A stretch of DNA of 38,460 nt from assembly GCA_012396115.1 (NCBI GenBank), contig JAAXOU010000014.1, positions 1 through 38,460 on the forward strand, read 5' to 3'. The position numbers and the translations under genes are program-made. This DNA comes from Streptomyces somaliensis DSM 40738. Lineage in GTDB: Bacteria; Actinomycetota; Actinomycetes; Streptomycetales; Streptomycetaceae. Each line of letters starts with the position of its first letter. Position 1 is the stretch's first letter. This document shows positions 26-15,855 of this stretch, in pieces. The notes under the pieces are model-generated. The model saw only the letters and a program-made list of their open reading frames with translations. It made no database searches and had not been told where the DNA came from.

Positions 26-343
26 TCAGCGCGCGGCGGGGGGCGGCGGCGCGCCCCGGCCCACCCGGACGCGCCCGCCCTCGTACTCGGGAACCAGCTC
101 CACCTGCACCTGGTGGGTCGTCTGGCGGTCCACCTGGCCGCCGAGTTCGGCCGTCACCACGCCGATGCGCAGCCCGCCGCGGCCCGAACCGGAGCGGTGC
201 ACCTGCACCGTGAACTCCAGGTTCACCTTCTCCACGGTGAACCCCAGCGCACGGCCCTCCGCCTCGTCGCGGGCCTTCTCCAACTCCCCGCGGATCTGCC
301 GCACCACCTCGGCCAGCCCGACGAAGTCCTGTCCGTCCGCCAT
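26..343 (-). CDS. trypco2 (trypsin-co-occurring domain 2) family protein
   Basis: The 105-residue product has an N-terminal helical segment (about residues 5-35, LAEVVRQIRGELEKARDEAE) followed by a beta-rich part with VEKVNLEFTVQVHRS and THQVQVELVP. This is the layout I recognise for the trypco2 family, small proteins named for occurring next to trypsin-like proteases in predicted NTP-dependent conflict and signalling loci. The gene is divergent from a trypsin-like protease gene with only 77 bp between them, which fits that association. No catalytic residues or membrane segment are visible. It is probably an adaptor or substrate of the protease; that role is inferred from family context. The C-terminal PPPPAAR tail is low complexity. 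Confidence 0.8.
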   Translation of the reverse strand: MADGQDFVGLAEVVRQIRGELEKARDEAEGRALGFTVEKVNLEFTVQVHRSGSGRGGLRIGVVTAELGGQVDRQTTHQVQVELVPEYEGGRVRVGRGAPPPPAAR

Positions 344-406
344 CGCGGAACCCCCCGTGTTCGTGTTTCCGGATCGTCAAGTATGGGGTGGAAGAGGCCT
401 TCCGCG

Positions 407-412
407 TATAGT
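407..412 (+). promoter_or_regulatory. -10 element of a probable leaderless promoter
   Basis: TATAGT matches the actinobacterial -10 consensus at five of six positions against TATAAT and lies 8 nt before the ATG at 421. This spacing puts the transcription start at or next to the ATG and no Shine-Dalgarno sequence is present, so the protease gene is probably read from a leaderless mRNA. I see no good -35 match 17-18 nt upstream. Confidence 0.5.
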
Positions 413-420
413 TTCGCACC

Positions 421-2187
421 ATGGTGGCCGACGGGGGTATCAGTGCCGCTCCTTCCTCGAAGACCCCGCCCTGGGCGGTCCGCATCCGGTGGGGGAGCGG
501 CGAGATCGCGGGCGCCGGCGTCCTGCTGAGCCGCGACCGCGTCCTCACCTGCGCCCACGTCGTCGCGCCCGGCGCGCGGGTCACCGCCGAGTTCGTCGGC
601 GCGCCCGGCCGCGAGGTCCCCGCCGTCACCGCCCTGGTCGACGAGGACGCGTACGTCCCCGAGACCCGCGACGCGGACGGCGACCCCAGCGGCGACGTGG
701 CCCTCCTCCGGCTCGAACACCCCCGGCCCGCCCACGAGGCGGTCTCCCTCCACCGGCTCTCCGCGCCGAACCGCACGGTCCGCATGTACGGCTTCCCGTA
801 CGAGCACAACGGCGGCATCTGGTTCCGCGCCACCATCATCGGCGGCTGCGGACGCGACGGGCAGGTCCAGCTCGGCCCGCAGACCCCCGGCGAACTGGCC
901 AGCCCCGGCTGCAGCGGCGCCGGCGTCGTCGACGACCTGACCGGCGAGGTCATCGGCATCGTCCTCACCGGCATGCATGACCGGCACGGCAACGCGTTCT
1001 CGTTCATGAGCCCCGCCGAGACCATCGTCCGGCACCTCCCGCAGGTCGCCGAGTGGACCCGTGGACGCACCGCCGTCGACGACCGGCTCCGCTCCGGCAC
1101 CGACGGCGGGCCGTCCGCACCAGACCTCGACGAGCCGTTCGCCCAGCGCCTGGCCGCCTGGCTCCGCGGCGACGGGGAGCAGGTGGAGATCAGCCTCGTG
1201 CACCCCTCGGACCGCGTCCGCACCGCGACCCTGCGCCGCGCCATCACCCTCGCCGACCGCGAGTTACGCACCACCGCCTCCGTCGGCAGGGCCTCCCTCG
1301 ACCCGCCCGGCACCGTCCCGTCCGCCGGCGGCCACGACCTGGCCCTCGACGTCACCGGCGTCACCGCCGCCGAGACGGCCGAGCGCGTCGCGGAGCGCAT
1401 GGGCCTGTGGCAGCACCCCGCCGACCCGGCCGTCGAGCGGATCAGGGCCGGGGGCGTCGCCCTCACCCTCGTCGTCGTCGGCGTCGACCGGGCCGCCGAC
1501 CCGCCCGCCCTCCTCGACCTCCTCGCCGTCCTCCGGGAGGGCGGCAGCCGCCTCCTCCTCGTCTTCCACGGGACCGGCGCCTGCTACGAGCGCGCCCGGT
1601 CCGACCTGGTCGCCCGGCCCGCCCGGGAGCGCCGCGCCCGCCTCGTCACCCGGCTCCGGGAACTCACCGGGCCGCTCGCCGCGTCCCTCGGCGAGGCCAT
1701 GGCCGCCGTACGGGCCGAGGACCCCGACTCCGTCCACGAGGCCCTCTACCGGGCCGGCGGCGCCCTCCACATCCTCGCCGCTGCCGAGCGGGCCGCCCCA
1801 CCCGGTGAGGAGCCCGTCCCATCCGGCGAGGGGCCCGCCCCACCCGGCGAGGGGCCCGACCTGGCGGCGTTCGAGCGGCTCACCGACCGCCTCGACGCCC
1901 GGCTCCGCGCCGCCGCCGACCGCCTCGACGCCCTGCGCCGCCGCCGCGGCGAGCTCCTCGGCCGGCTCGACGGCTACCACGCCCTGCACCGGAGCCTCAC
2001 CGAGGGCGCCGAGGACCTGGAGACCGACGCCCTCCACCGCAGCGCCCACCGGCTGCTGCGCGCCCGGCCCTGCGACGTGCGCGCCGCCGAGGAGGCCGTC
2101 GACGCGTACGTCCGCCTCGTCGAGCGCGCCGACCACCTCGGACGCGAGCGGAACCGGCGGGAGCGGGGAGGTGCCGCGCCGGCATGA
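421..2187 (+). CDS. Trypsin-like serine protease with a long C-terminal extension
   Basis: Residues 18-200 form a chymotrypsin-fold protease. His46 is in LTCAHVV, Asp92 in SGDVALLRL and the nucleophile Ser165 in SPGCSGAGVV, so the triad is complete. No signal peptide is present, which suggests a cytoplasmic protease. The remaining roughly 370 residues match no domain I recognise: an alpha/beta stretch (about 235-400), a linker with three 7-residue repeats rich in Pro, Gly and Glu (about 460-480), and a charged helical, possibly coiled-coil tail (480-575). The gene heads an operon; its TGA overlaps the ATG of the kinase gene. Proteases of this kind in conflict loci are thought to be released or activated by partner NTPases or kinases. 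Here the kinase next door is the likely controller, which is inference. Confidence 0.8.
   Translation: MVADGGISAAPSSKTPPWAVRIRWGSGEIAGAGVLLSRDRVLTCAHVVAPGARVTAEFVGAPGREVPAVTALVDEDAYVPETRDADGDPSGDVALLRLEHPRPAHEAVSLHRLSAPNRTVRMYGFPYEHNGGIWFRATIIGGCGRDGQVQLGPQTPGELASPGCSGAGVVDDLTGEVIGIVLTGMHDRHGNAFSFMSPAETIVRHLPQVAEWTRGRTAVDDRLRSGTDGGPSAPDLDEPFAQRLAAWLRGDGEQVEISLVHPSDRVRTATLRRAITLADRELRTTASVGRASLDPPGTVPSAGGHDLALDVTGVTAAETAERVAERMGLWQHPADPAVERIRAGGVALTLVVVGVDRAADPPALLDLLAVLREGGSRLLLVFHGTGACYERARSDLVARPARERRARLVTRLRELTGPLAASLGEAMAAVRAEDPDSVHEALYRAGGALHILAAAERAAPPGEEPVPSGEGPAPPGEGPDLAAFERLTDRLDARLRAAADRLDALRRRRGELLGRLDGYHALHRSLTEGAEDLETDALHRSAHRLLRARPCDVRAAEEAVDAYVRLVERADHLGRERNRRERGGAAPA
1798..1860 (+). 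repeat. Three tandem 21-bp coding repeats
   Basis: Three imperfect 21-bp units encode PPGEEPV, PSGEGPA and PPGEGPD inside the protease gene. They form a flexible linker between the protease-proximal region and the C-terminal helical tail. The copy number is likely to vary between strains. Confidence 0.8.
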
Positions 2188-4607
2188 CGACGTCCGCCCC
2201 CTGCACCCGGCCCGGTTGCACCGGCACGGTCATGGCCACCGGCTTCTGCGGCACCTGCCACCGCCTGCCCCCCGCCGGTCCGGGCACCACCGGCCCCGCC
2301 TCCACGCGCGACCCGGGCACCACGGGCCCCGCCTCCACCCGCGGCCCCGGCACCACCGGCACCGCCGGCCCCGCCTCCACCCGCGCCCCCGGCCCCGCAG
2401 GTCCGCGCGCGGCGTCCGCCGGGCCCGCCCCGCTCGACCGCGACGGCCTCGTCCTCCTCCCGCACATCACCGCCCCCGACCCCGGCGTCGCCGCCACCAC
2501 CACCGCCCGCCCGCCCACCGGCGGCCGCCGCTGCGGCTTCGAGAACTGCCCCGGCACCATCGGCATCGGCTACGACGGCGACCCCACCCCCGACCACGGC
2601 TTCTGCCCCGAGTGCGGCCGCCCGTACTCCTTCGAACCCCGCCTCCGGCCGGGCGACACCGTCGGCGGCCACTACCGCGTCCTCGGCTACCTGGCGGCCG
2701 GCGGCCTCGGCTGGGTCTACCTCGCCGAGGACACCGAGGTCCCCGACCACCTCGTCGTCCTCAAGGGCCTCATCAACACCAGCGACGCCGTCGCCCGCCG
2801 CGCCGCCGTCGAGGAGCGCCGCTCCCTCACCACGCTCCACCACCGGGACATCGTCCGCATCATCACCCACGTCCAGCACCGGGCGCCCGGCGACGACGAG
2901 CCGACCGGCTACATCGTCATGGAGTACATAGCGGGCCGCTCCCTGGCCTGGATCACGCGCGCCTCCGACGAGGAGCTGACCGCCGTCTTCGGCCGGCCCT
3001 TCGGCATCGACCACGTGATCACGTACGGCTGCAAGATCCTCGGCGCGCTGGAGTACCTCCACGAACAGGGCCTGCTCTACTGCGACATGAAGCCCGACAA
3101 CGTCATCCACTACGGCCGCGACATCAAGGTCATCGACCTGGGCGCCATCCGCCGTGTCGACGACCGCGACTCCGGCCTGGTCTACACCCGCGACTACGCG
3201 CCCCCGAAGCGGGAACGCGACCGGCGCGGCTTCCACGTCGACACCGACCTGTACACCGTCGGCCGCACCCTCCAGGCCCTCGCCACCCGTGCCGCCCCCG
3301 CCTCCGGGCTCGCCGCCCGCTCCTTCGACGCGCTCGTGCGCCGCGCCACCCACCCCGAGCCGGCCGCCCGGTTCGCCTCGGCCGCCGAGATGTCCCGCCA
3401 GCTGTGGGAGGTGCTGCGCGAACACCAGGCCCTGACCTGGCACGAGCCCTACCCCGAGCGCTCCACCCGGTTCGCGCCCACCGCGGCGCTGTTCGGCTCC
3501 GACCTCGGCACGGTCCCGGGCCTGCGCCACTGGGCCGGTGCCGACCCGGCCGGCCCGCGCCCCCTGCCCGCGGCCGCACCGGACCCCCGGGAGGCCGCGC
3601 GGGGCCTGCCCGCCCCGATCCCGGACCCCGGCGACCCGGCCGCCGTCCTGCTCGGCGGGCTCGCCGCGCACAGCCCCGAACGCGTCGCCGAACAGGCCGG
3701 GCGCGACCCGGCGCTGGGCACCGTCGAGACGGCCCTGTGGCTGTGCCGCGCGTACGCGGACCGGGGTGCCCCCGACGAGGCCGGGCGCTGGCTGGAGGCG
3801 GCCCGCCTGCGGGGCGCCGGCGAGTACGACTGGCGGCTCTCCTGGCACCGGGGCCTCGTCCGCCTCGCGGAGTACCGGGTGCGGGCCGCGGAGGAGGAGT
3901 TCGCCGCCGTGTACGCGGCGCTGCCCGGCGAATGGGCGCCCAAACTGGCGCTCGGCTACTGCGCCGAGTACCTGAGCGCCGACGCGGAGCGGACGCGGGA
4001 CTACTACGAGGCGGTCTGGCAGCGCGACCGCACCCAGGGCAGCGCGGCGTTCGGACTGGTACGGGCCCACCTGCGCGACGGCGACCGGCGGGGCGCCGTC
4101 GCCGTCCTGGACGCGGTGCCCACCACGTCCCGCCACCACGACGCGGCCCGGGTCGCCGCCGTGCGCGTCCTGGCCGGCAGGCTGCCGGCCGGACCCCGGG
4201 GAGCGGGCGCGGGCCGCGGCCCCACCGCGCGGGAGCTGCGGGAGGCCGTCGAGCGGCTCGCGGGACCGGACGGCGCGGGTGACGACCCCGCGACCCGGGA
4301 CCGGCTCGTCGCCGAGGTGCGGGAGAGCGCGCTCGCCTGCCGGCCGCCCGGTGGATGGGGACCCGGCTTCCCGGCGGGCGAGGTGCTCGGCACGGAGGAC
4401 GACGTGCCCGCCCTGAGCGGACTGCTCTCCCGCTCCCTGCGGGAACTCGCCGACCGGGTGCGCGACGGCCGGCTGCGGGACGACCTGCTGGACCGCTCGT
4501 ACGCGGTCCTCCCGCCGCCGCGCCTGCGGCTCGCCGCCGCGGGACGGCACGGGAAGGGACGGGACCGGGGACGCGCACGCGCGACGAGGGGGGAAGCGGG
4601 GACATGA
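2184..4607 (+). CDS. PknG-type serine/threonine protein kinase with zinc ribbons and TPR region
   Basis: The 807-residue product has the PknG architecture. An extra N-terminal zinc ribbon (Cys7, 12, 22, 25) is followed by a Thr/Pro/Ala linker and a rubredoxin-like ribbon (Cys117, 122, 141, 144). The kinase domain spans about 158-415, with glycine loop AAGGLGWVY, Lys194, catalytic YCDMKPDNV (Asp301) and DLGA (Asp318). DLGA instead of DFG and the later DLYTVGRTL both match mycobacterial PknG, as does AVLDAVPTTSRH in the C-terminal TPR-like part (about 490-720). In mycobacteria PknG phosphorylates the FHA protein GarA/OdhI to control glutamate metabolism, under GlnH and GlnX. GlnX-like and solute-binding genes lie downstream in this operon. 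The first ribbon and linker are additions I do not recall in PknG. Confidence 0.9.
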   Translation: MTTSAPCTRPGCTGTVMATGFCGTCHRLPPAGPGTTGPASTRDPGTTGPASTRGPGTTGTAGPASTRAPGPAGPRAASAGPAPLDRDGLVLLPHITAPDPGVAATTTARPPTGGRRCGFENCPGTIGIGYDGDPTPDHGFCPECGRPYSFEPRLRPGDTVGGHYRVLGYLAAGGLGWVYLAEDTEVPDHLVVLKGLINTSDAVARRAAVEERRSLTTLHHRDIVRIITHVQHRAPGDDEPTGYIVMEYIAGRSLAWITRASDEELTAVFGRPFGIDHVITYGCKILGALEYLHEQGLLYCDMKPDNVIHYGRDIKVIDLGAIRRVDDRDSGLVYTRDYAPPKRERDRRGFHVDTDLYTVGRTLQALATRAAPASGLAARSFDALVRRATHPEPAARFASAAEMSRQLWEVLREHQALTWHEPYPERSTRFAPTAALFGSDLGTVPGLRHWAGADPAGPRPLPAAAPDPREAARGLPAPIPDPGDPAAVLLGGLAAHSPERVAEQAGRDPALGTVETALWLCRAYADRGAPDEAGRWLEAARLRGAGEYDWRLSWHRGLVRLAEYRVRAAEEEFAAVYAALPGEWAPKLALGYCAEYLSADAERTRDYYEAVWQRDRTQGSAAFGLVRAHLRDGDRRGAVAVLDAVPTTSRHHDAARVAAVRVLAGRLPAGPRGAGAGRGPTARELREAVERLAGPDGAGDDPATRDRLVAEVRESALACRPPGGWGPGFPAGEVLGTEDDVPALSGLLSRSLRELADRVRDGRLRDDLLDRSYAVLPPPRLRLAAAGRHGKGRDRGRARATRGEAGT
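2283..2390 (+). repeat. Tandem coding repeat in kinase linker
   Basis: Three copies of a 33-bp unit encode GTTGPASTRDP, GTTGPASTRGP and GTTGTAGPASTRAP, the last longer by three codons. They join the two zinc ribbons of the kinase. The Thr and Ser residues could be autophosphorylation sites, which is speculation. Confidence 0.8.
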
Positions 4608-6067
4608 CGCAGGGCAACACCGCGGACGGCGCGACGGCCGGCCTGGAGACCAGCCAGTGGAAGTACCTGTCGGCGCGGGGCCGCGAACAGGAGATGCACG
4701 TCGTGCTGACCGTCCGCGTCGGGGGCACGGGCGGCACGCCGGGGGACCGGCCCGGCGGCGGCCCGCTGCTCGCCCAGGTCCTCGTCGTGGACTGCTCCGG
4801 CTCCATGACCTGGCCGCAGGAGAAGTTCCGCGCCGCCCGCCAGGCCGCCGCCGCGGCGATCCGGATGCTGCCGGACGGCACGCCGTTCGCCGTCGTCCAG
4901 GGCACCGAGGACGCCCTCATGGCGTACCCGGCGCAGGAGCGCATGGCCGCCGCCTCCGCCGAGGAGCGCCGCCGCGCCACGTCGGCCCTGCACGGCCTGC
5001 CGGCCGGCGGCGGCACCTGCATCGGCGCCTGGCTCGACCTGGCCGGGCGGCTCCTCGCCGAACGGGGCGCGCCCATCGGGCACGTGCTGCTCCTCACGGA
5101 CGGCAGGAACGAGCACGACGGGGTCATGCCGCTCGACCGGGTCCTGGACACCTGGGACGGCCGGTTCGTCTGCGACGCCTGGGGCATCGGCGACGGCTGG
5201 GACGCCCGCGAACTGCTGGGGATCACCCGGCGGCTGCACGGCGGCGCCGGAGCCGTACGGGAGGAGTCCGCGCTGCCCGGCGAGTACGAGAAGCTCACCG
5301 CCCGGCTGCTCACCAAGACCCTGCCCGAACTGACCGTCGAGGTCACGCCCGCGCCGGGCACCACCGTCCGCTACCTCAAGCAGGTGTTCCCCACGGAGGC
5401 CGACCTGGAGCCCGCCGGCCCGCCGGGACCCGGCGGCGCGTACCGCTTCACCACCCGCGCCTGGGGCGACGAGACCCGCCGCTACCAGCTGTGCCTCTCC
5501 GCCGACCCCACCGGGCGCCCCCGCCACGAGGACCTGCAGCTGGCCGTTGTCGCGCTCGCGCCGCCCGCCGGCCACACCGTGCGCCTGCCGCCCCCGCGCC
5601 CCTGCGTCGTCCACTGGACGGAGGACCCGGCGCTCTCCCGGCACACCGACACCCAGGTCGCCCACTTCCAGCTGTACGCACAGCTCGGCCAGGCCGTCGC
5701 CGCCGCGGCCGACGCCCACCGCCGGGGCGACCGCGAAGGCGCCGAGCACCACCTCGGCCGCGGCGTCCGGCTCGCCCACACCGTCGGCGCGGCCCGGCCG
5801 CTCGCCGACTTCCAGCGGTTGGTGGAGGTCCTCGACGCCACCGCCGGACGGGTCAGGCTCCGAGCCGGCCTCGCCCCCGTCGACTTCGAGCACCTGATCA
5901 CCAGCAGCAGCCGCAGTACGTACGGCCCCGAACCGGACGACGGCGACGCACCGCGGGGCCCGGCCGCCGCGGGCGCCACCGCCCCCTGCCCGGCGTGCGG
6001 CGGGCGGGCACCGGTCGACGCCCGGTTCTGCCCCCGCTGCGGCCGCCGGCTCCGGGAGCGGCCGTGA
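4604..6067 (+). CDS. vWA-domain protein with C-terminal zinc ribbon
   Basis: The ATG overlaps the kinase stop (ATGA), which fixes the start and gives 487 residues. A von Willebrand A domain begins near residue 55. Its metal-binding (MIDAS) motif is DCSGSM (Asp63, Ser65, Ser67), with the later conserved Thr in GGGTCIGA and Asp in LLLTDGRNE. A beta-rich middle region follows, then a helical segment (about 355-430). The C-terminus carries a double CxxC zinc ribbon, CPACG and CPRCG. No signal peptide is seen. vWA proteins often scaffold complexes with MoxR-type ATPases, but none is encoded here; the partner may be the kinase, which also carries zinc ribbons. Role inferred from position. Confidence 0.85.
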   Translation: MTQGNTADGATAGLETSQWKYLSARGREQEMHVVLTVRVGGTGGTPGDRPGGGPLLAQVLVVDCSGSMTWPQEKFRAARQAAAAAIRMLPDGTPFAVVQGTEDALMAYPAQERMAAASAEERRRATSALHGLPAGGGTCIGAWLDLAGRLLAERGAPIGHVLLLTDGRNEHDGVMPLDRVLDTWDGRFVCDAWGIGDGWDARELLGITRRLHGGAGAVREESALPGEYEKLTARLLTKTLPELTVEVTPAPGTTVRYLKQVFPTEADLEPAGPPGPGGAYRFTTRAWGDETRRYQLCLSADPTGRPRHEDLQLAVVALAPPAGHTVRLPPPRPCVVHWTEDPALSRHTDTQVAHFQLYAQLGQAVAAAADAHRRGDREGAEHHLGRGVRLAHTVGAARPLADFQRLVEVLDATAGRVRLRAGLAPVDFEHLITSSSRSTYGPEPDDGDAPRGPAAAGATAPCPACGGRAPVDARFCPRCGRRLRERP

Positions 6068-6987
6068 GCACCACCGCCCGCGACCTCAGGGAGCGGCTCA
6101 TCCGGCTGGTCGCGCTCGGACTGGCCACGACCTTCGTGGCGTTCGGCGCGTTCCGGGCCGTCCACGACGACGCCGCCCGGCTCGCCGGGTCCAGCTCGCC
6201 CGGCGTCCTCGCCGTCGACACGGCCCGCTCCGCCCTGATGTCGGCCCGCGAGTCCGTACCCGGGGCGGGACTGGACGGCGCCGGCTCCGGCACCTTCCAC
6301 ACCCGTGTGTCCGTCGCCCACCAGGCCCTCGCCGTGGCCGCGTCCGAGAACGTCACCGGCGTCGAGGGCCGCCGCACCATCCAGACCGTCACCGGGCTGA
6401 TCGCCGTCTACTCCGGCTGGGTCGAACAGGCCCACCGCGAGCCCGCCCGCTCCCCGCTGCGCGCCGCCTACCTCCACTACGCCGACCGCGTCCTGAACGC
6501 GCCGGGGACGGAGGAGGACATCACGGGCCGCCTCACCGACCTGCGCTCCCAGCAGGTCGCGGTGGCAAAGGAGCAGGCATCCCTCGGCTGGGCGCGCGCC
6601 CTGTCCTGGACCGCCGCCGCGCTGTTCGCCCTGCTGTGCGCGGCCCTGTGGGAGACCCAGCGGTTCACGCGGCACCGGTTCCGCCGCCTGGCCGACCCGC
6701 CGCTGCTCGCCGCGGCGGCACTGTGGACGGCGGGCGCCGCGGTCCTGGCGTGGCTCACCCTCCGCACGCGCGGCGGAACGGCCCGCGCGCTCGCCGAGCT
6801 GAGGACGCCCCGGACCGGCGACGGCGTCGCGGCGGCCGGAGGCCGCGTGGCGGAGCACCTGGCCGGCGTGGACCTGCGCGCGGCCGCGTCCGACCTGATC
6901 CTGGTGGGAGGGGTGGCCCTGGTGGCCCTGACGGTGAGCGGCCTGCTGCCGCGCATCAACGAGTACCGGCAGGAGGGGCGCCGATGA
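6064..6987 (+). CDS. Four-TM membrane protein resembling GlnX
   Basis: The GTG start overlaps the previous stop (GTGA). The 307-residue product has a hydrophobic helix at about 14-32, an outer helical domain to about 180, two helices at about 183-205 and 218-240, a second outer loop, and a last helix at about 278-297 ending in a short basic tail. A membrane protein with a helical-bundle sensor domain, placed between a PknG-type kinase and a solute-binding protein, matches mycobacterial GlnX in topology and context. GlnX is thought to pass ligand binding by GlnH to PknG. I recognise no sequence motif specific to GlnX, so the assignment rests on topology and neighbours. Confidence 0.65.
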   Translation: MSTTARDLRERLIRLVALGLATTFVAFGAFRAVHDDAARLAGSSSPGVLAVDTARSALMSARESVPGAGLDGAGSGTFHTRVSVAHQALAVAASENVTGVEGRRTIQTVTGLIAVYSGWVEQAHREPARSPLRAAYLHYADRVLNAPGTEEDITGRLTDLRSQQVAVAKEQASLGWARALSWTAAALFALLCAALWETQRFTRHRFRRLADPPLLAAAALWTAGAAVLAWLTLRTRGGTARALAELRTPRTGDGVAAAGGRVAEHLAGVDLRAAASDLILVGGVALVALTVSGLLPRINEYRQEGRR

Positions 6988-8222
6988 GGCGGTGGCGCAC
7001 CCACCTCGTCGTCGTGCTCGGCCTGGCGCTCCTCGCCGGCGCCGTGGCGGCGGGCACCGAGTGGGCGGACGGCCGGAAGCGCTCCGTCACGGTCCTGGGC
7101 AACTGGACCGGCGCCGACCAGGAGCGGTTCGAGAAGGAGGTGCTGGAACCGTTCGAGGAGGAGCACGGCATCCGGGTCGTGTACCAGGGCAGCTCCGCCG
7201 AGAGCCAGGTGCTCGCCGCCGACGTGGCCTCCGGCACGCCCCCCGACGTGGTCATCATGCCGGGCCCCGGCGAACTCGCGGCGTACGCGGCCCAGGGTCG
7301 CCTCAAGCCCCTGGACGGCCTGTTCGACCCGGACCACTACGACCCCATGTGGGTGCCCGAACTGAAGGGCGCCGTCCACTGGGTACCGGTGAAGACCGAC
7401 CTGAAGAGCACGGTCTGGTACCCGGGCGCCCTCACCGAGACCGAGGCCGTCCGCCTCGCCCGGGACCCGGGGGAGTGGTGCCTCGCCATGGAGTCCGGCG
7501 CCACGTCCGGCTGGCCGGGCACCGACTGGGTCGAGGACGTCCTGCTCCAGCAGGCCGGCTGGGAGACGTACCAGGAGTGGGCGACGGGCCGGCTGCCCTG
7601 GACCCACCCGGCCGTGCGCAAGGCGTGGACGACGTGGGGCGAACTCGTCGGCGCGGGCGACCGGCGGCGCGTCGAGCGGGCGCTCCTCGCCCCCTACCAG
7701 GACCCGTGGGGCGGTGGTCACCGCGCCTGCGCGGACGAGCGGCTGGAACACCAGGCGGCGTTCGTCCGTTCCGCCCCGCACTGGACGGCGGTGCGCGGCC
7801 GGTACCTCCACGCCGGGGCCGTGGTCCCGGACGCCCGCCGGGACCTGACGGCGTGGGAGGTCTCCGGCGACCTGGCGGCCATGCTGCACGACACGCCCGA
7901 GGCGCGGGCGCTGATCCGCCACCTCGCCGACCCCGGCACGGCCCGGCTGGGCTTCACCGCCAACAGGGCCGTCCCCACGGGCGCGTACGGCGCCGACCCG
8001 ATGACCGCCCGCATCGACGCCACCCTGCGCGGCCGCGGCACGGTGCGCTGCTGGGACGCCTCCGACGCGATGCCCCCGGCGATGCGCGACGCCTTCCACC
8101 AGGCGGCGCTGCGGTTCCTGGCCGATCCGGGGGAGCTGACGGCCCGGCTGGCGGTGCTGGAGGAGGTCCGCCGGCGGCACGGCAGGACGGCGTGGCTGCC
8201 CTCGGCGTGCGGCGACGGCTGA
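6984..8222 (+). CDS. Membrane-anchored extracellular solute-binding protein
   Basis: The ATG overlaps the previous stop (ATGA). The 412-residue product starts with a basic end and a hydrophobic segment (about 8-25, HLVVVLGLALLAGAVAAG) with no lipobox cysteine, so it is either secreted or held by an uncleaved helix. The rest looks like a family 1 (sugar-type) periplasmic-binding fold: SVTVLGNWTGADQERFEKEV, GTPPDVVIMPGPGELAAYA and SGWPGTDWVEDVLL are typical pieces. No ABC permease or ATPase gene is nearby, so it more likely serves as a sensor subunit for the upstream GlnX-like protein and PknG-type kinase than in uptake. Mycobacterial GlnH is an amino-acid-binding lipoprotein, so the ligand here may differ. 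Confidence 0.75.
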   Translation: MRRWRTHLVVVLGLALLAGAVAAGTEWADGRKRSVTVLGNWTGADQERFEKEVLEPFEEEHGIRVVYQGSSAESQVLAADVASGTPPDVVIMPGPGELAAYAAQGRLKPLDGLFDPDHYDPMWVPELKGAVHWVPVKTDLKSTVWYPGALTETEAVRLARDPGEWCLAMESGATSGWPGTDWVEDVLLQQAGWETYQEWATGRLPWTHPAVRKAWTTWGELVGAGDRRRVERALLAPYQDPWGGGHRACADERLEHQAAFVRSAPHWTAVRGRYLHAGAVVPDARRDLTAWEVSGDLAAMLHDTPEARALIRHLADPGTARLGFTANRAVPTGAYGADPMTARIDATLRGRGTVRCWDASDAMPPAMRDAFHQAALRFLADPGELTARLAVLEEVRRRHGRTAWLPSACGDG

Positions 8223-8323: not shown

Positions 8324-9292
8324 TCAGCGCGCCCCGATGGCCCGCCGCAGCGCCTCCCCGGCCAGGCCCACGGCCGCGTCGTGCGTGGCACCGGCGAGCC
8401 GGGCCGGGTGGATCGGCCCGCCCTGCGCGAGGTGCCGGTCGTACGGCAGCACCAGCACCGTCACGCCCGGCTCCCGCAGGTGGGCGACGGCCGCCTTCGG
8501 GTCGAGGGTCATGTCCGGGGTGTTGGAGGTCAGTACGACGACGGTGCTGTCGATCGCCCGGCGGTGCGGCAGCCCGCCCAGCCAGTCCAGCACCACCCGG
8601 GTGCCGCCCACGCCCTCCGCGGTGCGCGGCGCGACGATCACCCGGGCGTGCGCGGTGTCCATCGCCGTACGGGCCACCTCGCCGGGCAGCGTCTCGCAGT
8701 CCACGACGGTCACCGCGAAGTGGCGGCGCAGCGCCAGCGACACCGTCCGGTACGTCGGCACGTCCAGCGGCGGCCCGACCCGCCCCTGGCTCGCGGGGAG
8801 CAGCCAGCCGCCGTCGGTGACGGGGACGAGGTAGCCGGTGATGTCGTTCAGGTCCATCCGGGGCGTCAGGATCCGCGCCAGCTCGGGGCAGGACCACCGC
8901 ACGGACGGCGCGCCCATCCGCACGGCGAGCGTGCCCAGCGCGGCGTCGGCCTCCAGGGTGAGCACCGGGTCGGGCCGGTAGCGGGTGAACGTACGGCCCA
9001 GCAGCGCGGCGACCGTCGACTTGCCGACCCCGCCGCGGATCGACGTCACGGCGATGACCCGTCCGCTGGGGACCGGCAGCCGCACCTCCCGCCCGACGCG
9101 CCCCTCCTCCACCACCTGCTTGGAGACCGCGGGGGCCAGTCCGCGCAGTGACCGTCCGGCCCGCCGCACCGCCGAGTCGCCGTGCTGGGGCCGCCCGAGC
9201 GCGGAGGCGAGCCGCGCGTCGACGACGGGCACGGATTCGGGCGCGGGCAGGGGTACGTACGGCCTGCGCATCAGGTGGTCGCCGTGGGTCAT
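8324..9292 (-). CDS. ParA/MinD-like P-loop ATPase
   Basis: The 322-residue product has about 75 N-terminal residues of low conservation, then a SIMIBI-class ATPase. The deviant Walker A is RGGVGKST (residues 86-93); the usual signature lysine of KGGxGK is Arg86 here. VTVVDCETLPGEVA is the Walker B-like segment. The start is supported by AGGAG placed 6 nt upstream. Similar ATPases in Streptomyces and mycobacteria accompany type VII secretion or spatial positioning, but no ecc or esx gene is present here, so the partner is unknown. It converges on the signalling operon, with about 100 bp of GC-rich dyad-containing DNA (8223-8323) between them. It probably forms a transcription unit with the small ORF upstream. 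Confidence 0.75.
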   Translation of the reverse strand: MTHGDHLMRRPYVPLPAPESVPVVDARLASALGRPQHGDSAVRRAGRSLRGLAPAVSKQVVEEGRVGREVRLPVPSGRVIAVTSIRGGVGKSTVAALLGRTFTRYRPDPVLTLEADAALGTLAVRMGAPSVRWSCPELARILTPRMDLNDITGYLVPVTDGGWLLPASQGRVGPPLDVPTYRTVSLALRRHFAVTVVDCETLPGEVARTAMDTAHARVIVAPRTAEGVGGTRVVLDWLGGLPHRRAIDSTVVVLTSNTPDMTLDPKAAVAHLREPGVTVLVLPYDRHLAQGGPIHPARLAGATHDAAVGLAGEALRRAIGAR

Positions 9293-9659: not shown

Positions 9660-10565
9660 TCAGTAGAGTCCCGCGCCGTCCTGCCGGTAGGTGTTGGCGA
9701 GGATGTCGTCGAGGAACCGCCGGAAGTCGGCCTCCAGGTGGAGTCCGTCCCCGGGTTGGTAGCGCATCAGGCCCGGGCACAGGTCGCGGTCGAGAGTGCT
9801 GTCGACGAACAACGCGTAGGAGAAGCGGTCGGGTTTGCACGCCCCGGTGTCGGGCTGGCGCACCACACGGTGAGCTACCGCGGCCACGGGAGTGGCGGTG
9901 TGCCGGGTGAGGATCTCCATCGCACAGCCGAAGTTGACGATGAAGGTGCCGGGCAGCGGGTCTATGGGATGCCAGGCTCCGTCGCGTGCCACCTCCAGGC
10001 CGGGCTCGACGGAGCGCAGCACGGTGACCCAGTCGGAGTCCTTGTGGACGTTGAGCCCGCGTGCGGCCACGTGCGGACGGAAGTGGTTGAAGGTGAGGGT
10101 GTGGGTGCCCCGGGGGGTGAGGCTGTACCCGGTGGCCTCGTCCCACAGGGGGCGGGGCAGGTCGAGGCGGGCGAGCACGGCGCGCTGCACGTCCAGGGCG
10201 AAGTCCCGCATGTCGGCGGCCTGGCGGGCGAGGTCGGCCGGGTAGATCCGGTCCCACCACGTGCTCTCCAGGAAGAACTGCTCGGTCTGGTCGTCAGTGC
10301 GGCGGAAGTATCCCTGGTGGTCGCCGAGCCGGTCGGCGGTCCAGTCCCGGTAGCCCCGGTAGGCGTCGTGGCCGTCGGCCGGGCGGTAGAAGGAGCGGGC
10401 GAAGCGGTCGCCCGCGGACAGGTGCAGCCCGGCGGGACGGCGGATGTAGAAGAATCCGTCGCGCAGGGCACTCCCCAGGCCGCCCGCGGTGGTGAACTCC
10501 AGCTTCCCCCGGTGGAGTTCGGCCGTCTGCCAGCCGGTGACGGCGGGGCGCGGCGAGCCGCTCAT
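9660..10565 (-). CDS. bcmG: Fe(II)/2-oxoglutarate-dependent oxygenase BcmG
   Basis: The 301-residue product belongs to the isopenicillin N synthase-like 2-oxoglutarate oxygenases. The iron ligands are His174 and Asp176 (VHKDSDW) and His232 (VAHRV); Arg247 and Ser249 in DRFSY would bind 2-oxoglutarate. ATG overlaps the bcmF stop (ATGA), fixing the start. It is the last gene of a seven-gene bcm operon. In bicyclomycin biosynthesis, five such enzymes and one P450 oxidise cyclo(L-Ile-L-Leu). BcmG is, as I recall, one of the three that hydroxylate unactivated carbons (with BcmE and BcmC). The letter is assigned from gene order, since the five paralogues look alike. Confidence 0.88.
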   Translation of the reverse strand: MSGSPRPAVTGWQTAELHRGKLEFTTAGGLGSALRDGFFYIRRPAGLHLSAGDRFARSFYRPADGHDAYRGYRDWTADRLGDHQGYFRRTDDQTEQFFLESTWWDRIYPADLARQAADMRDFALDVQRAVLARLDLPRPLWDEATGYSLTPRGTHTLTFNHFRPHVAARGLNVHKDSDWVTVLRSVEPGLEVARDGAWHPIDPLPGTFIVNFGCAMEILTRHTATPVAAVAHRVVRQPDTGACKPDRFSYALFVDSTLDRDLCPGLMRYQPGDGLHLEADFRRFLDDILANTYRQDGAGLY

Positions 10566-11461
10566 ACGCGGGCGTGGAAGTCGTAGCCCAGCTCCTTGGC
10601 CTTGTCCACGGAAAAGGCCCGGAAACTCCGGTAGGGGCGCAGCGTCCCGTCCGTGTCGTACTGGTAGAGGTCCATGTCGTAGCGCGGTCCCATGTAGACG
10701 GTGAAAGAGGAGCGGTCGGGGTTGCCGGGGGTGGCGGTCAGTCCGGGGACGCGGTGGTAGACGGCCGTGACCGGGCGGGGCAGTTTGCGGGTCAGGACGC
10801 GGAAGGCGTCGCCGAGGTTGACGGTGAAGTGCCCGGGGCGTTCGCGGACGGGCAGCCAGCGGCCCCGGTGCAGGATCCGGTAGCCGGGCTGGTCGGTGCA
10901 GATGGTGGTGATGAAACCGCTGTCGGAGTGTCCGACGATGCCGGTGCGGCCGCCGAGTCCGGCGCGGTAGTGGTTGACGGTGGTGTAGCACAGGCCGTTG
11001 TCGCCGCGGGCACCACCGGTGACGGTCTCCCGGTCGGCCTCGGGCACCCCGGACAGTTCGAACACCCCGGCCAGGGCCTGCAGGGTGAGTTCGCGCATGT
11101 CGCGCAGCAGCGCTGTGACGTCGTCGGGAAGGTAGCGCTCCCACAGGAAGCTCTCGATCTGCAGCTGCTCGACCTGGTCGGGGCGGTCCTCGTAACCGAG
11201 TTTGGATTCGGGGTGACGGTGCTCGCGGTGGCCGCGCCGGCGGTCGCCGGCGACGCCGGGCCGGTAGAAGGTGCGGCAGAACTCCAGGCCCGGGCTGATG
11301 TCGAGCCCGTCCGGTACGGCGAGATGGAACGCGCCCAGTTCCAGGGCGTGCCCAGCCTCCCGGGAGGTGTCGAAACGCAGTCGGCGGTCCTCGACGCGGG
11401 CGGTGGGCAGGACCAGGTCCGTGGTTCCGGCCCCGTTCGGGTGGGGGGTGTCGGTGATCAT
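10562..11461 (-). CDS. bcmF: Fe(II)/2-oxoglutarate-dependent oxygenase BcmF
   Basis: The 299-residue oxygenase has iron ligands His178 and Asp180 (GHSDSGF) and His236 (VYHRV), and the 2-oxoglutarate pair Arg250 and Ser252 (DRSSF). It differs from its four paralogues in having HSD instead of HKD or HRD and a different C-terminus (about residues 255-299), in line with a different reaction. In the published pathway BcmF makes the exocyclic methylene by desaturation; I transfer that by position. AGGAG lies 9 nt before the ATG. It starts 46 nt after the bcmE stop, the only real gap in the operon, and overlaps bcmG by 4 bp. Confidence 0.88.
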   Translation of the reverse strand: MITDTPHPNGAGTTDLVLPTARVEDRRLRFDTSREAGHALELGAFHLAVPDGLDISPGLEFCRTFYRPGVAGDRRRGHREHRHPESKLGYEDRPDQVEQLQIESFLWERYLPDDVTALLRDMRELTLQALAGVFELSGVPEADRETVTGGARGDNGLCYTTVNHYRAGLGGRTGIVGHSDSGFITTICTDQPGYRILHRGRWLPVRERPGHFTVNLGDAFRVLTRKLPRPVTAVYHRVPGLTATPGNPDRSSFTVYMGPRYDMDLYQYDTDGTLRPYRSFRAFSVDKAKELGYDFHARV

Positions 11462-11507
11462 CGTGCGCGGCTCCTGTCGTGGGTTCGGGGGCTGCGGGCC
11501 CAGGGCT

Positions 11508-12450
11508 TCAAAGGGCTGCGGAGTCGTCGTAGGTGCGGTCCACCTCCCGGGCGGCGAAGTCGGCGACGGACTGCAGGCGGCGGGGGATCCCGCCCTCCAT
11601 GCGGTGGATGACGCCGTCGAGGCCGGAGTCGAGGAAGGTGACGTAGGAGAAGCGGTCGGGACGGCCGGGGGCGCGGCGTGTGGAGACGACGCCGTGGACG
11701 TTGGCCCGGACCGGGGTGGGCAGGAGTTCTGAGGACTTCCAGCGAACTGCCGAAGTTGACGATGAAGTGGCCCGGTTCCGGGTTGACGGCGCCGAGAGTG
11801 CCGTCGACCAGGGCGAGCAGACCGGGTTCGACGGAGCGCAGCACGGTGACCCAGCCCGAGTCGCGGTGGAACTTGGAACCGCGGGTGGGCTTGTCGGCGC
11901 GGAAGTGGTTGAACGCCAGCATCTGGTGGCCGCGGTCCGCGGTGAGGCCGGCGGTGACGGTGTCCCACGTCGCGCGGGGCACCCCGGCGTGGTCGAGGAC
12001 GGCGCGCAGCACGGTGAGTCCGGTCCCGGCCATCCGTGCGCCGAGGGCGGCAACCTCGCCCGGCAGCAGGTCCCAGTTGGCGCGTTCGACGTAGAGGTTC
12101 TCCCACTGGTCGTGTTCGCGGTCGAAGTAGCCCTGGTAGGCGCCGGGGACATCGGCGTGGCGGTAGCCGCGGTAGGGGTCGGGGGCGCCGCCCGCGTCCT
12201 GGTCCAGGTGGAAGTGGGTGGCGAAGCGGTCGTCGGGTGCGCAGTCGACGCCGTCGGGCACGCGCAGCAGGAAGAAGCCCTGGGCCAGTGCGGCGTCGAA
12301 GTCGCCGGGGCCGTCGAAGACGAGGCCGTCACCGTCGATGCGGGCACGGCGCAGTGCAAGGGCGGGATGGTGGGCGCGGGCCTCGTCCTCGGTGGACATC
12401 GGGGGCAGCCGGACGGGGGGACGGACGGTGAGGGGGTGCGGGGCGGTCAT
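11508..12450 (-). pseudogene. bcmE: Fe(II)/2-oxoglutarate oxygenase BcmE, frameshifted in this sequence
   Basis: The first 715 nt encode an intact oxygenase up to FIVNFGSSLEVL, with iron ligands His195 and Asp197 (FHRDSGW). At about 11728-11736 the frame is lost. The adjacent frame continues the family pattern with ELLPTPV, the distal His (ANVHGVV) and DRFSY, and stops cleanly at 11508. Aligned to the paralogues (pattern E-[ILV]-L-T-x4-TPV), restoring two bases gives the exact family length; removing one base would also join the frames. The unshifted frame would run on to 11458 as arginine- and proline-rich sequence. Translation is coupled to bcmD (ATGA). BcmE is described as performing an early hydroxylation. 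The shift is either a real lesion or a sequencing error. Confidence 0.85.
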
Positions 12451-13921
12451 GGCACCGGCTCCTGTTCCGTTCGGGCGGGGACGGCGGCCAGGGGGCTCAG
12501 CGTGATGGTGCCGGCGCGGGCGGGTCGGGGCATCGAGGAGAAGCGGCGCAGCCGCGGATCGGCGTCGCGGACGGTGACCTCGTACCGTCCGTACAGTTCG
12601 GTCAGGACGAGGGACTGCATGTGCACGGAGAACAGCCGGCCGGGGCACTTGCGGGGGTTGCGGTGCGCGTTGACCATGCTGAAGGAGTTGATCTCGTAGC
12701 GGTTGCGGGACAGCAGCGAGGAGACGGTCTCCCGGTCGGAGCGCGCGATGGCCCTGATGTTGGCCGGGGCGAAGACGCAGGGCCGCGGGAAGACGCCGGG
12801 GTCGTGATTGGCCTGCCGGCGGTCGAGCCACATCATGGTGTTCGCCGGCACGGTGACGGAGCGCCCGGCGTGCCGCAGGGTCAGGGGACGGGTGGTGCGC
12901 CGCCACAGGGCGCTGGGGTTGCTGCCGCCGAGCCGTACGGCCTCCAGCACCGCCAGGTCGATCACGGAGAGGCCGCCGTCCCGGTGCGGGCAGCCGCCGT
13001 CTCCCCGTGCCAGGGCCGCCACCTGTTCGCGCACCTCCCCGGTGTCAGGGCCCTCCAGCAGGACCAGGGCCCACATCAGGCTGAGCGCGGTGGTGTCGTA
13101 GGTCGCGACGACCGTGGTGCCGAGTTCCTTCACGCGTGCGGCGTCCAAGCTCGCGACGGCCTCGGGAGTGAAGGGCAGTCCCCACTGGACGAAGTGGCGC
13201 CGTATCAGGTTGCTGTCAGGGACGGGAGGTTGGCGTGCAGGACGTCGCGCACGAAGGGCACGATGACGTCGAGTTCGCGCATGACGCCCGGGTTGTCATT
13301 GCTGATGACGTCGGAGGCCAGGTCGAAGAAGCCGCGCACCACGGCGCCGTAGCGCGCCGAGCGCAGGTAGTCGTCCAGGGGCCTGCAGGTAAAGTCGAGC
13401 ACCCCGGGCAGTCGGCTGTCGACGTACGCCACCAGGGAGAGTGCGAAGTCCTCCAACGGCAGTGCGCGGCCGGACTGCCGCGCGGCCAGGAACCCGGCCG
13501 TGTGCCGGCGTATGTGGGGGGCGAGCCGTTCGACGAACCTGCTGCTACCCAGGGAGCGTTCGACGATGGCGCGCTTGGCGGGCCGCTCGGGGTGGTCGTG
13601 CGGCAGGGACCCCATGAAGTCGCCGAACAGTTCGCGGTTGGCGTCGGTGGAGGGTGCCAGGTCCTCCTCGTCGAGCAGGGGGCCGTTGGTGATCTGGTAG
13701 ACGGCCAGGCGCTCACCGAGCCAGAAGGTGCACAGTCCGCCGTTGTCCTCGGCCAGGGCGCTGATGCCGGAGGTGCGGAAGTAGTGGGAGGCGGGTTCTC
13801 CGCGCACCACGGTGGCCTCGTGGAAGGCGGCGGCGTGGCCGTGTCGCCGACTGGGGCCGGGGTGGTGGGGGAGTACGCCGGGGAACGGGGCGCCGGGCGC
13901 CTCGGGCAGTACGGTGCTCAC
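12447..13921 (-). pseudogene. bcmD: Cytochrome P450 BcmD, frameshifted in this sequence
   Basis: The N-terminal half (13205-13921) starts at GTG with GGGGG upstream and ends early at LHANLPSLTAT. From about 13225 the adjacent frame continues as DSNLIRRHFVQWG and then the P450 C-terminal half: I-helix ATYDTT, ExxR motif EAVR, and cysteine ligand in NPRKCPGR. One more C in the CCC at 13224-13226 (minus strand) would join them into a protein of about 490 residues. No other start exists in the second frame upstream of an internal TTG. The heme loop is divergent: the usual Phe and Gly of FxxGxRxCxG are Ala and Asn. BcmD is the only P450 of bicyclomycin biosynthesis and adds a hydroxyl late in the pathway. 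Confidence 0.85.
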
Positions 13922-14825
13922 GCGACCCCCACGTAAGGGCGCATGAGCCGAAGTCCTCGTGCCGGTCGGACCAGGTCCGCTCGTTGAACTCGCGCAGGAA
14001 GTCCGCCGCGTCGCGCACCGGGACGGCGGTCCCGTCACGCCTCACCTGGAGCAGGTCCCCGGTGGCGGGCGGATTGGCGAACGCGGCGAAGGACACCCGG
14101 TCGGAGGTGCCGGGGGCGCGGGTGCACTGGCGCACCCGGTGCAGTGGTGCGTGCACGGGGGTCGGCAGCTCGGTGGTGAGCAACTCGAAGGCGCCACCGA
14201 AGTTGACCACGAAGTGGTCGGGGACCGGATCGACGGGCGTCCAGCCGCCGTCGTGCAGGATCTCCAGACCCGGCTCCTGCTGGTACAGGACGGTCACGAA
14301 CCCGGTGTCCTTGTGTGGGGCGCAGCCGAGTTGCGGGCGCTCGGAGCGGTAGTGGTTGGCGGCGAACCAGTGGGTGCCCTTCCCTTCGACGGCGCCACCG
14401 GTGACCAGGTGCCACAGGTCGGGGGCGACGTCCAGCGCGGTGAGCGCGGAGCGCAGCACGATCAGGGTGAGCTCCTGCATGTGGTCGGCCGTCTCGCGTG
14501 CGGGCCGGGGGAACCAGCGTTCCCGGCCGGGACCGTCCACGAGGAGGTGCTCGGTCTGGAAGTGCTCCCGGTCGAAGTAGACCCCGTGCAGGCTCTTGAA
14601 GCCCCGGTACGCGTCGAGACCGTCGTGCCCCGCGGCGCCGGCGCGGTCGCGGTGGAACTCGTGACACAGGGTGAGGCCGGGTCCGGCATCGAGGGTGGAG
14701 GGGACGGCGAGGAGGAAACAGCCGTCGCGCAGGGCCTGGACCAGCCCTCCGGTGGTGACGAAGTCCAGGGTCCCGTCCTGTGGTACGGCCGTGGCGCGTT
14801 GGAGCGCCGGGGAGTGCGTGGTCAC
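13918..14825 (-). CDS. bcmC: Fe(II)/2-oxoglutarate-dependent oxygenase BcmC, probable 3' frameshift
   Basis: The oxygenase has iron ligands His171 and Asp173 (PHKDTGF), His229 (PLHRV) and the 2-oxoglutarate pair Arg243 and Ser245 (DRVSF). The GTG start overlaps the bcmB stop. The frame stays open far into bcmD, to 13713, as an Arg/Pro-rich tail unlike any paralogue. One extra base near 13948 (GG to GGG on the minus strand) instead gives EDFGLMRPYVGVA and a TGA that overlaps the bcmD GTG, the same 4-bp coupling used at other junctions here. I therefore give the corrected end; without correction the CDS ends at 13713. BcmC is described as one of the hydroxylases acting early on cyclo(Ile-Leu). 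Confidence 0.82.
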
Positions 14826-15850
14826 GTCCGGTCGTCCTCCTTCCGGGCGGGGGTTCCGGAGCCCGCGAGGACGGGTGCGTCGGTGCCCGCGTAGATCTCG
14901 TGGTCGTTCTCGTCGATGAGCTCGCGCGAGCCGCAGACCCGCAGCAGGCCGACGCCGCGCACGAACCGGTGGATGCCCTCGTCCTCGCCGGGCAGGCAGC
15001 CGCTGGAACTGAAATGCCCGAAGCTCGAGCGGTCCCGGTCCTGTCGGGCGACCCTGTGCATGATCGCCGCGACGGGCGTGCCGCTACCGGCGGTCAGGAT
15101 CTCCATGGACAGCCCGAAGTTGACGACGAAGTGGTCGGGGTCGACGGGCACGGCCTCCCAGCGGCCCTCGCGGTAGACCTCCAGGCCGGGTGTGGTGGTG
15201 CGCAGGATGGTGAGGAACCCGTCGTCCTTGTGGGAGCTGAGTCCGATGTCGGGTCGCGTGGGCCGGTAGTGGTTGAACGTCAGGTGGTAGGAGCCGCACG
15301 CCTCGGAGCAGCCGCCGGTGGCCCGCCGCCAGTCCTCGCGGGGGATGCCTGCGTGGGCGAGGACGGACCGCAGCACCGTCCGGGCCAGCCGGGTGAGTGC
15401 TTGGCCGAGGGCGGTGACCTCCGACGGGTAGTGCTCGGTCCAGAAGCGGCTCTCCAGCAGGAACTGTTCAATCTGGTCGACGCGCTGGTGGAAGCCGAGC
15501 AGCGGATCGTCGAAGCGGTCGCTGCGGATGTCCCGGAACCGGCCGTAGGGCATGGCGCCGGGACCCCGGTGGAACTGGGCGGCGAAACGGTCCCCGACCC
15601 CGACGTCAAGGCCGTCGGGAATACGCAGCAGGAACACCCCGTCGCGGAACGCGCGGGCACGTGCCCCGGCATCCTCGAAGACGAGGGAACCGGTTTCCGT
15701 TTCGCTCGCCTCCGGCCCCGGCCGTACGTACGCCTTTTCCAGCCGGGCCTCGCCCTGGGATTTACTGCCGGGGGAGCGCTGTTCGTACAGGTCTTGGTAT
15801 ATCTTTCCCCGGTGGATCTCCGGGATGCGGCTTCGGGAGGCTGCCGCCAT
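14822..15850 (-). CDS. bcmB: Fe(II)/2-oxoglutarate-dependent oxygenase BcmB
   Basis: This 342-residue protein is the longest of the five oxygenases, with an N-terminal extension of about 55 residues and a C-terminal extension of about 40. Iron ligands are His207 and Asp209 (SHKDDGF) and His265 (IMHRV); Arg274 and Ser276 (DRSSF) fit the 2-oxoglutarate site. Its AAGGAAGG ribosome site overlaps the end of bcmA, 5 nt away, and its stop overlaps the bcmC start, so it is tightly coupled to both. In the published pathway BcmB forms the bicyclo[4.2.2] ether ring after the first hydroxylations. The extra termini agree with a specialised member, but the assignment rests mainly on gene order. Confidence 0.88.
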   Translation of the reverse strand: MAAASRSRIPEIHRGKIYQDLYEQRSPGSKSQGEARLEKAYVRPGPEASETETGSLVFEDAGARARAFRDGVFLLRIPDGLDVGVGDRFAAQFHRGPGAMPYGRFRDIRSDRFDDPLLGFHQRVDQIEQFLLESRFWTEHYPSEVTALGQALTRLARTVLRSVLAHAGIPREDWRRATGGCSEACGSYHLTFNHYRPTRPDIGLSSHKDDGFLTILRTTTPGLEVYREGRWEAVPVDPDHFVVNFGLSMEILTAGSGTPVAAIMHRVARQDRDRSSFGHFSSSGCLPGEDEGIHRFVRGVGLLRVCGSRELIDENDHEIYAGTDAPVLAGSGTPARKEDDRT

Positions 15851-15855
15851 CTAGA

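Follow-up and report, generated by a model that had tools for sequence, protein, structure and literature searches.

How a PknG-type kinase, a solute sensor and an intracellular trypsin come to share one operon is the question raised by a stretch of DNA from Streptomyces somaliensis DSM 40738 (assembly GCA_012396115.1, contig JAAXOU010000014.1, positions 1 to 38,460 of the forward strand). The window, meaning this whole stretch of 38,460 nucleotides, starts where its contig begins, at base 1, and carries a six-gene block at 26..8222, called the cassette here. The cassette combines known modules in a new way, with new wiring. We see about an even chance that it is a PknG-family unit whose output has shifted from metabolic control to a conflict-type intracellular protease, with a direction of signalling, a phosphorylation switch and substrates that we infer. 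What sequence comparison firmly indicates is the set of parts, their recurrence, two kinds of fusion, mostly intact catalytic residues, a STAND core without a P-loop and a shared helical domain.

The activating signals of bacterial Ser/Thr kinases and the inputs of predicted conflict systems are mostly unknown, and the cassette would join both. It would link a defined outside sensor to a well-studied kinase family and to a protease effector whose output can be read, and its study is feasible in genetically accessible Streptomyces; S. clavifer and S. glaucescens are among the carriers detected. An earlier sequence-only reading of this DNA knew of no description of the combination; none was found in the literature searched either, which was available in part and covers work other than subscription papers and preprints.

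Organization of the cassette

The block opens with a divergent gene for a 105-residue Trypco2 protein (26-343, minus strand). After an intergenic gap of 77 bp, five genes follow on the plus strand, encoding a 588-residue effector protein with trypsin, STAND and helical parts (421-2187; Trypsin_2, 53.6 bits, plus profiles), an 807-residue PknG-type Ser/Thr kinase (2184-4607; Pfam and PDB 2pzi), a vWA protein with a C-terminal zinc ribbon (4604-6067; VWA_3, 38.6 bits), a 307-residue GlnX-like membrane protein with a GTG start (6064-6987; NF058618, below cut-off) and a 412-residue solute-binding protein (SBP) of the SBP_bac_1 type (6984-8222; SBP_bac_1, 47.2 bits). These five are chained by four 4-bp overlaps, in order ATGA, ATGA, GTGA and ATGA. 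Both this layout and the protein families agree with the sequence-only reading. For the window, PADLOC gave one weak Cas11a match and otherwise only generic homology to kinases and proteases.

Conservation across genomes

Genome searches show that the cassette recurs. The GlnX-like protein has matches in 32 of 121 genomes of the family, PknG_TPR in 143 of 394 genomes of the class, and the trypsin protein gives some match in 163 of 295 genomes of the genus; the SBP profile reaches 192 of 394 class genomes at 1e-25, many of these matches probably being generic binding proteins. Stretches of up to 20 kb fetched around matches carry L numbers (L063, L172 and so on) and were annotated with profiles built from the window and the family loci, 8 to 15 rows each.

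The genus sample comprises 60 trypsin loci from 58 genomes, about 40 of them the best matches and 20 picked from lower down, so its counts are lower bounds. All five operon genes occur together in 42 of the 58 genomes, while trypsin, kinase, vWA and SBP are found together in 46 genomes, and trypsin with kinase in 52 of the 60 loci (51 genomes). Among the eight loci without the kinase, L114 and L161 end at a contig edge, and L152, L153, L155, L165, L166 and L167 hold other trypsins. Around the GlnX-like matches in the family, 14 of 20 loci have all five operon genes; in L070 the contig begins at the kinase, and L080 and L081 are canonical PknG operons. Twenty further stretches from the class-wide SBP search yielded trypsin cassettes in L252, L253, L261, L262 and L270, cassettes without trypsin in L259 and L260, and nine stretches with the SBP alone. 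A check proposed in advance, co-occurrence of the genes in other genomes, therefore favors the cassette as a recurrent conserved unit, beyond chance: gene content is kept in 42 of 58 genus genomes and 14 of 20 family loci while the flanks differ.

In taxonomic reach, the best 80 of at least 591 matches (the named loci) place the cassette in Streptomyces, Actinacidiphila, Streptosporangium, Plantactinospora, Amycolatopsis, Kibdelosporangium and Actinokineospora, and versions without trypsin in Actinomadura and Saccharopolyspora. Some of the named loci duplicate records in the other sets (among them L176 with L117, L177 with L115, L180 with L063 and L182 with L065), and the sets are not summed. 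A phylum-wide draw gave matches at 1e-30 in seven of 296 genomes, four of them full length (the S. somaliensis genome included), all from the same genus. In the 30 named loci with coordinates and spacing, some of them truncated at a contig end, the trypsin-kinase, vWA-GlnX and GlnX-SBP junctions are often -4, and outside the window kinase and vWA are mostly separated by a gap of 10 to 250 bp.

Natural fusions add to the case for a conserved unit, as do the mostly kept kinase residues described below. Trypsin and kinase share one stop-free frame in L084, L149, L151 and L160, loci in which no vWA match was found. According to Pfam, the L084 fusion of 1431 residues runs from Trypsin_2 (35-193) through Pkinase (767-981) to PknG_TPR (1047-1385). 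The GlnX-like protein and the SBP form a single frame in ten loci (L063, L065, L067, L068, L069, L070, L075, L143, L144 and L154); the SBP anchor would add a fifth transmembrane segment to the four of the GlnX-like part and so leave the SBP outside. Because each pair is joined naturally, the fused partners very likely act together.

Other loci depart from this pattern. In L131 (genome G518), a single frame of 1355 residues matches both the kinase and the SBP profile, and neither a vWA nor a GlnX-like protein was matched, through an in-frame deletion or an assembly error. L076, L077, L078 and L254-L257 hold only a GlnX-like protein and a sugar-type SBP; the stretches fetched there gave no match to PknG, and we read these pairs as sensors with some other partner.

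The effector slot itself varies. L192 (Actinomadura chibensis) and L223 (Saccharopolyspora) keep the helical domain, kinase, vWA, GlnX-like protein and SBP, and carry a different N-terminal part, and in L259 and L260 a short helical gene occupies the effector position. Neither Pfam nor NCBIfam names the replaced effector domains, including the N-terminal domain of L192; by its motifs this domain looks cyclase-like, and we claim only that it is different from trypsin. Upstream of the cassette without trypsin in L260 (PknG, GlnX and SBP), a single protein (3313-5994, plus strand) joins an N-terminal part that looks TIR-like to a kinase of the PknB type and a solute-binding domain of the TAXI type (NCBIfam).

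A chimeric protein, the putative protease effector

The effector protein is a chimera of three parts. It begins with a trypsin-like domain (about 12-211), continues with a STAND NTPase core that lacks Walker A (about 236-392) and ends in a helical C-terminal part (about 387-582), whose residues 478-572 or so match the helical protein that canonical PknG operons encode. No segment resembling a transmembrane helix was seen in the protein. The sequence-only reading recognized the protease domain and overlooked both the P-loop-less STAND core and the helical domain. Its Ser165 does coincide with the catalytic serine column of the trypsin alignment, in a triad of H46, D92 and S165. Triad conservation, another check named beforehand, leaves the earlier reading unrefuted, with the triad intact in 67 of 71 cassette loci. 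The triad-less trypsins of L064, L066, L068, L072 and L208 are open, conserved genes; they are likely pseudo-proteases, and the loss of the triad suggests that proteolysis is dispensable in these loci.

Profiles, rather than structures, carry the STAND assignment, since the structure-alignment list (VIA-align) for this protein is dominated by the protease domain. With E values near 1e-11, the middle-domain profile retrieves two STAND proteins that have a P-loop, L276 and L296. It matches all 71 cassette trypsin frames, none of which contains GxxxxGK[ST]; against PDB sequences it gave no usable match (best E 0.14). The protein thus pairs an inactive STAND core with an N-terminal peptidase, an architecture like that of the iSTAND (inactive STAND) ternary systems.

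The C-terminal part connects the effector to PknG operons. In a profile comparison with hhalign, it matches the helical gene that precedes pknG in ordinary Streptomyces operons at E 8.7e-14 (trypsin profile columns 370-569, which are columns rather than window residues), compared with 0.26-0.51 for five control profiles. Using a helical profile built without the trypsin row L074, the domain is detected in 50 of 71 cassette loci (E 1e-3) versus none of six other trypsin loci (E 1e-5). Together, the STAND and helical domains would place the protease among conflict-type effectors, and the helical domain suggests a docking module on the kinase.

A PknG-type kinase outside the canonical clade

By comparison with solved structures, the kinase has the makeup of a full PknG. 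Its profile matches PknG in the PDB (2pzi) at E 1.1e-138, and Pfam detects Pkinase (PF00069, 77 bits) followed by the PknG TPR domain (PknG_TPR, PF16918, 176.2 bits). A rubredoxin domain with two cysteine pairs (PknG_rubred, PF16919, 31.1 bits against a cut-off of 28.5) includes cysteines 117, 122, 141 and 144, each conserved in 60 or 61 of the 69 loci, the first pair spaced CxxxxC; further zinc-ribbon-like cysteines lie near the N-terminus at 7, 12, 22 and 25. The catalytic-loop Asp is present in all 69 kinases, the ATP-binding Lys in 68 (with one gap) and the DFG-type Asp in 68.

In a quick tree of 79 rows that we picked out of 174, one branch (SH-aLRT 100) separates 29 canonical rows, together with L259 and L260, from 43 trypsin-cassette rows, three rows of trypsin-less kinase-GlnX-SBP loci, L192 and L223. 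The cassette kinases therefore lie outside the canonical PknG clade in this tree. The three trypsin-less kinases are nested among the trypsin rows (support 100), which suggests that trypsin was lost there. The genome, assembled in 535 contigs, gave no second PknG_TPR match. No FHA gene occurs in the cassette, and nine FHA matches lie elsewhere in the genome.

A putative transmembrane solute sensor

The label GlnX-like is apt because the protein matches NF058618 significantly (E 5.7e-13) yet its score of 48.8 bits is far below the curated cut-off of 250, and it matches no Pfam family. Its predicted structure (pLDDT 87.9) and hydropathy indicate four transmembrane helices and one long periplasmic helical bundle. 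The second periplasmic stretch spans about 45 residues in this model, so the two four-helix bundles of the GlnX family are not seen. Against PDB sequences, the profile found only NikO (E 0.2); Foldseek with the model gave no match below E 0.001, the best being a chemoreceptor domain (0.08, 20 A rmsd).

The SBP profile matches 24 PDB sequences at E <= 0.01 (best E 1.4e-6), mostly sugar or oligosaccharide binders with three iron binders, pointing to a sugar-type protein whose ligand class we infer from these relatives. An N-terminal membrane anchor (residues 6-24) contains no cysteine and hence no lipobox. The sequence-only reading had set the cassette beside an axis that includes GlnH, an amino-acid-binding lipoprotein, and a GlnH identity does not hold up for the binding protein: besides its SBP_bac_1 type, sugar-binder matches and cysteine-free anchor, the cassette SBP gives no match above 20 bits to a canonical GlnH profile.

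The vWA protein and Trypco2

The vWA protein supplies the vWA component found in iSTAND ternary systems. Its metal-binding motif MIDAS reads DCSGS at 63-67, with the MIDAS aspartate kept in all 63 loci, and its C-terminal zinc ribbon comprises C462, C465, C476 and C479. Three of these cysteines are present in 56 of 63 cassette loci and the fourth in 53, versus none of 12 canonical vWA proteins. Because the ribbon is special to the cassette and the MIDAS is kept, a role as adaptor would fit.

Trypco2 scores 87.8 bits against PF19631 (cut-off 24.2) and lies next to the trypsin gene. It is 62-71% identical to seven cassette homologues, is the sole Trypco2 match in its own genome and gave no match to PDB sequences with its profile. 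Present in 28 of 71 cassette loci, it is an optional partner. An association of Trypco2 with triad integrity (28 of 67 intact loci versus 0 of 4 with the triad lost) was rejected as evidence, the loci being too few and related.

Relation to known systems

The cassette resembles the mycobacterial and corynebacterial PknG-GlnX-GlnH axis in placing a PknG kinase with rubredoxin and TPR domains, a GlnX-like protein and a binding protein in one operon, so the PknG-GlnX parallel drawn by the sequence-only reading holds. In the available sections of three papers (PMC6069109, PMC9769921, PMC8546545), GlnX and GlnH are tied genetically to PknG in M. smegmatis and C. glutamicum, and the PknG TPR domain is required. 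Corynebacterial PknG lacks the rubredoxin domain. Unlike that axis, the cassette has an SBP of another family that is not a lipoprotein, one GlnX-like bundle instead of two, and no FHA gene; it adds a vWA protein and a trypsin-iSTAND effector, and its kinase falls outside the canonical clade.

Streptomyces also has a canonical operon of its own, GlnX-GlnH-helical-PknG-PP2C-vWA-FHA, found in seven genus genomes (L082, L085, L086, L089 and L091-L093). L240 (Mycobacterium) has the same gene set, and L095 and L096, from another family, have only GlnX-GlnH-PknG, an arrangement published for M. tuberculosis in the sources available in part. The cassette shares PknG, vWA, GlnX and a binding protein with the canonical operon, whose helical protein before pknG resembles the effector C-terminus. 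However, the canonical operon carries PP2C, FHA and GlnH where the cassette has trypsin-iSTAND, Trypco2 and a sugar-type SBP, and its vWA protein lacks the C-terminal zinc ribbon.

The effector side resembles the iSTAND and iSTAND2 MoxR-vWA ternary systems of Kaur et al. 2020 and 2021 (PMC7159879, PMC8195603). The accessible portions of these papers describe inactive STAND proteins with N-terminal effector domains, vWA proteins and Trypco-type neighbours; iSTAND2 is linked to trypsin domains and, less frequently, to cyclase domains (PMC8195603), and exchange of the N-terminal domain is typical of iSTAND2 and VMAP systems. In the place of their MoxR ATPase, however, the cassette has a PknG-type kinase and a transmembrane solute sensor. 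No MoxR AAA+ ATPase was found in the cassette or the other scanned window proteins; the contig begins at base 1, and neighbourhoods elsewhere were not scanned. "PknG" does not appear in the main text of either paper. As far as PMC7159879 was available, the cassette also resembles GAP1-N2 kinase-PP2C-vWA groups in having an active kinase with a zinc ribbon beside a stand-alone vWA protein, yet it lacks PP2C, shows no GAP1 or GTPase among the scanned window proteins, and has trypsin and a solute sensor instead.

Proposed mechanism and alternatives

By analogy with the PknG axis, a signal could pass from ligand to SBP, GlnX-like bundle, TPR domain, kinase activity and trypsin protein, in that order. 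The membrane-anchored, sugar-type SBP would meet an extracellular ligand and contact the bundle that the GlnX-like protein forms in the periplasm. Next, the kinase, for which the vWA/zinc-ribbon protein is a candidate adaptor, would alter the state of the trypsin-iSTAND-helical protein, which the helical domain may tether to it. Once released or activated, trypsin would cleave cytoplasmic proteins, with Trypco2, where present, as a possible regulator or targeting factor. On the best reading, this effector stands in place of the PP2C and FHA genes. The arrangement hints at a modular design of PknG axes in which sensors and effectors can be swapped, the helical domain perhaps serving as the plug.

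Several observations weigh against a shift of output to a protease. The triad is lost in four of the 71 loci and in the named locus L208; L083, L087 and L088 keep kinase, GlnX-like protein and SBP without trypsin, and in L192, L223, L259 and L260 other proteins occupy the trypsin position. No Trypco2 gene was detected in 43 of the 71 cassette loci, and the helical domain went undetected in 21 of 71 trypsin frames, including all four fusions with the kinase. Among the 69 kinases, four have Ser in place of the catalytic-loop Lys and one has Glu at the DFG position. Even for C. glutamicum, the GlnH-GlnX and GlnX-PknG contacts are termed undemonstrated in the available text of PMC9769921. Proteolysis, the output first proposed, is consequently not universal, given five triad-less loci and a few in which trypsin is absent or replaced.

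A bolder form of this protease reading is that filamentous actinobacteria have a ligand-gated transmembrane protease system. On this view the PknG nutrient-sensing axis was recruited to switch an iSTAND-trypsin effector of death or immunity and took over from the MoxR ATPase, and an effector slot ahead of a helical docking domain holds trypsin, its triad-less form or other domains. We offer it tentatively, as somewhat less likely than not.

The same features would suit a conflict or cell-death system outright, an actinobacterial counterpart of MoxR-vWA-iSTAND in which a sensor-coupled kinase replaces MoxR. The outside sensor would respond to damage, to invasion or to signals from kin, and the cell would be killed or arrested by trypsin. 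The available sections of PMC7159879 count trypsin, inactive STAND, vWA and Trypco-type neighbours among the parts of such systems, and the varying effector position in L192, L223, L259 and L260 is in keeping with them. The carrier genera are filamentous, a habit in which such systems are enriched. The sensor, however, is a solute-binding protein, MoxR is missing among the scanned window proteins (other neighbourhoods being unscanned), PADLOC gave only generic homology and a weak Cas11a match, and iSTAND systems are reported, in the text available, to be almost absent from actinobacteria. We hold a dedicated conflict system to be less likely than not, although it and the sensing-to-protease reading shade into each other.

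Less probable still is a nutrient-response system in which the trypsin fold is mainly structural, as a scaffold or for peptide delivery, and the system acts, as PknG does, by phosphorylating metabolic targets. The five triad-less loci that retain the other operon genes, the mostly kept kinase residues and the sugar-type SBP, which suggests nutrients, would all be expected, but the triad is intact in most loci and Trypco2 occurs only beside intact triads (28 of 28, a weak point with relatedness uncontrolled). The trypsin-kinase fusions, which set protease beside kinase, might instead mean that trypsin acts on the cassette itself, either cutting the kinase or the vWA protein in a one-way switch or ending the signal; nothing in the sequence points to a cleavage site, and we consider this quite improbable. 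Chance neighbours with unrelated functions, merely co-transcribed, can be set aside as scarcely credible: 4-bp overlaps are common in GC-rich actinobacteria, but the gene set is kept across families with differing flanks, and two kinds of fusion and a shared helical domain tie its parts together.

Other features of the window

Directly downstream, a ParA/MinD-like protein (8324-9292, minus strand) scores below curated cut-offs. Among 154 loci, some without the cassette, a ParA-like neighbour occurs only in the nearest relative, L172, and the gene was rejected as a cassette part. The window's 2OG oxygenase neighbour occurs in none of these 154 loci. The region 9660-16602 (minus strand) holds genes for three 2OG-Fe(II) oxygenases together with a P450 piece and a cyclodipeptide synthase (CDPS, 53.8 bits), and is a possible small-molecule gene cluster. 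Farther along, a PIN-domain protein (30505-30918, minus strand) is possibly half of a toxin-antitoxin pair.

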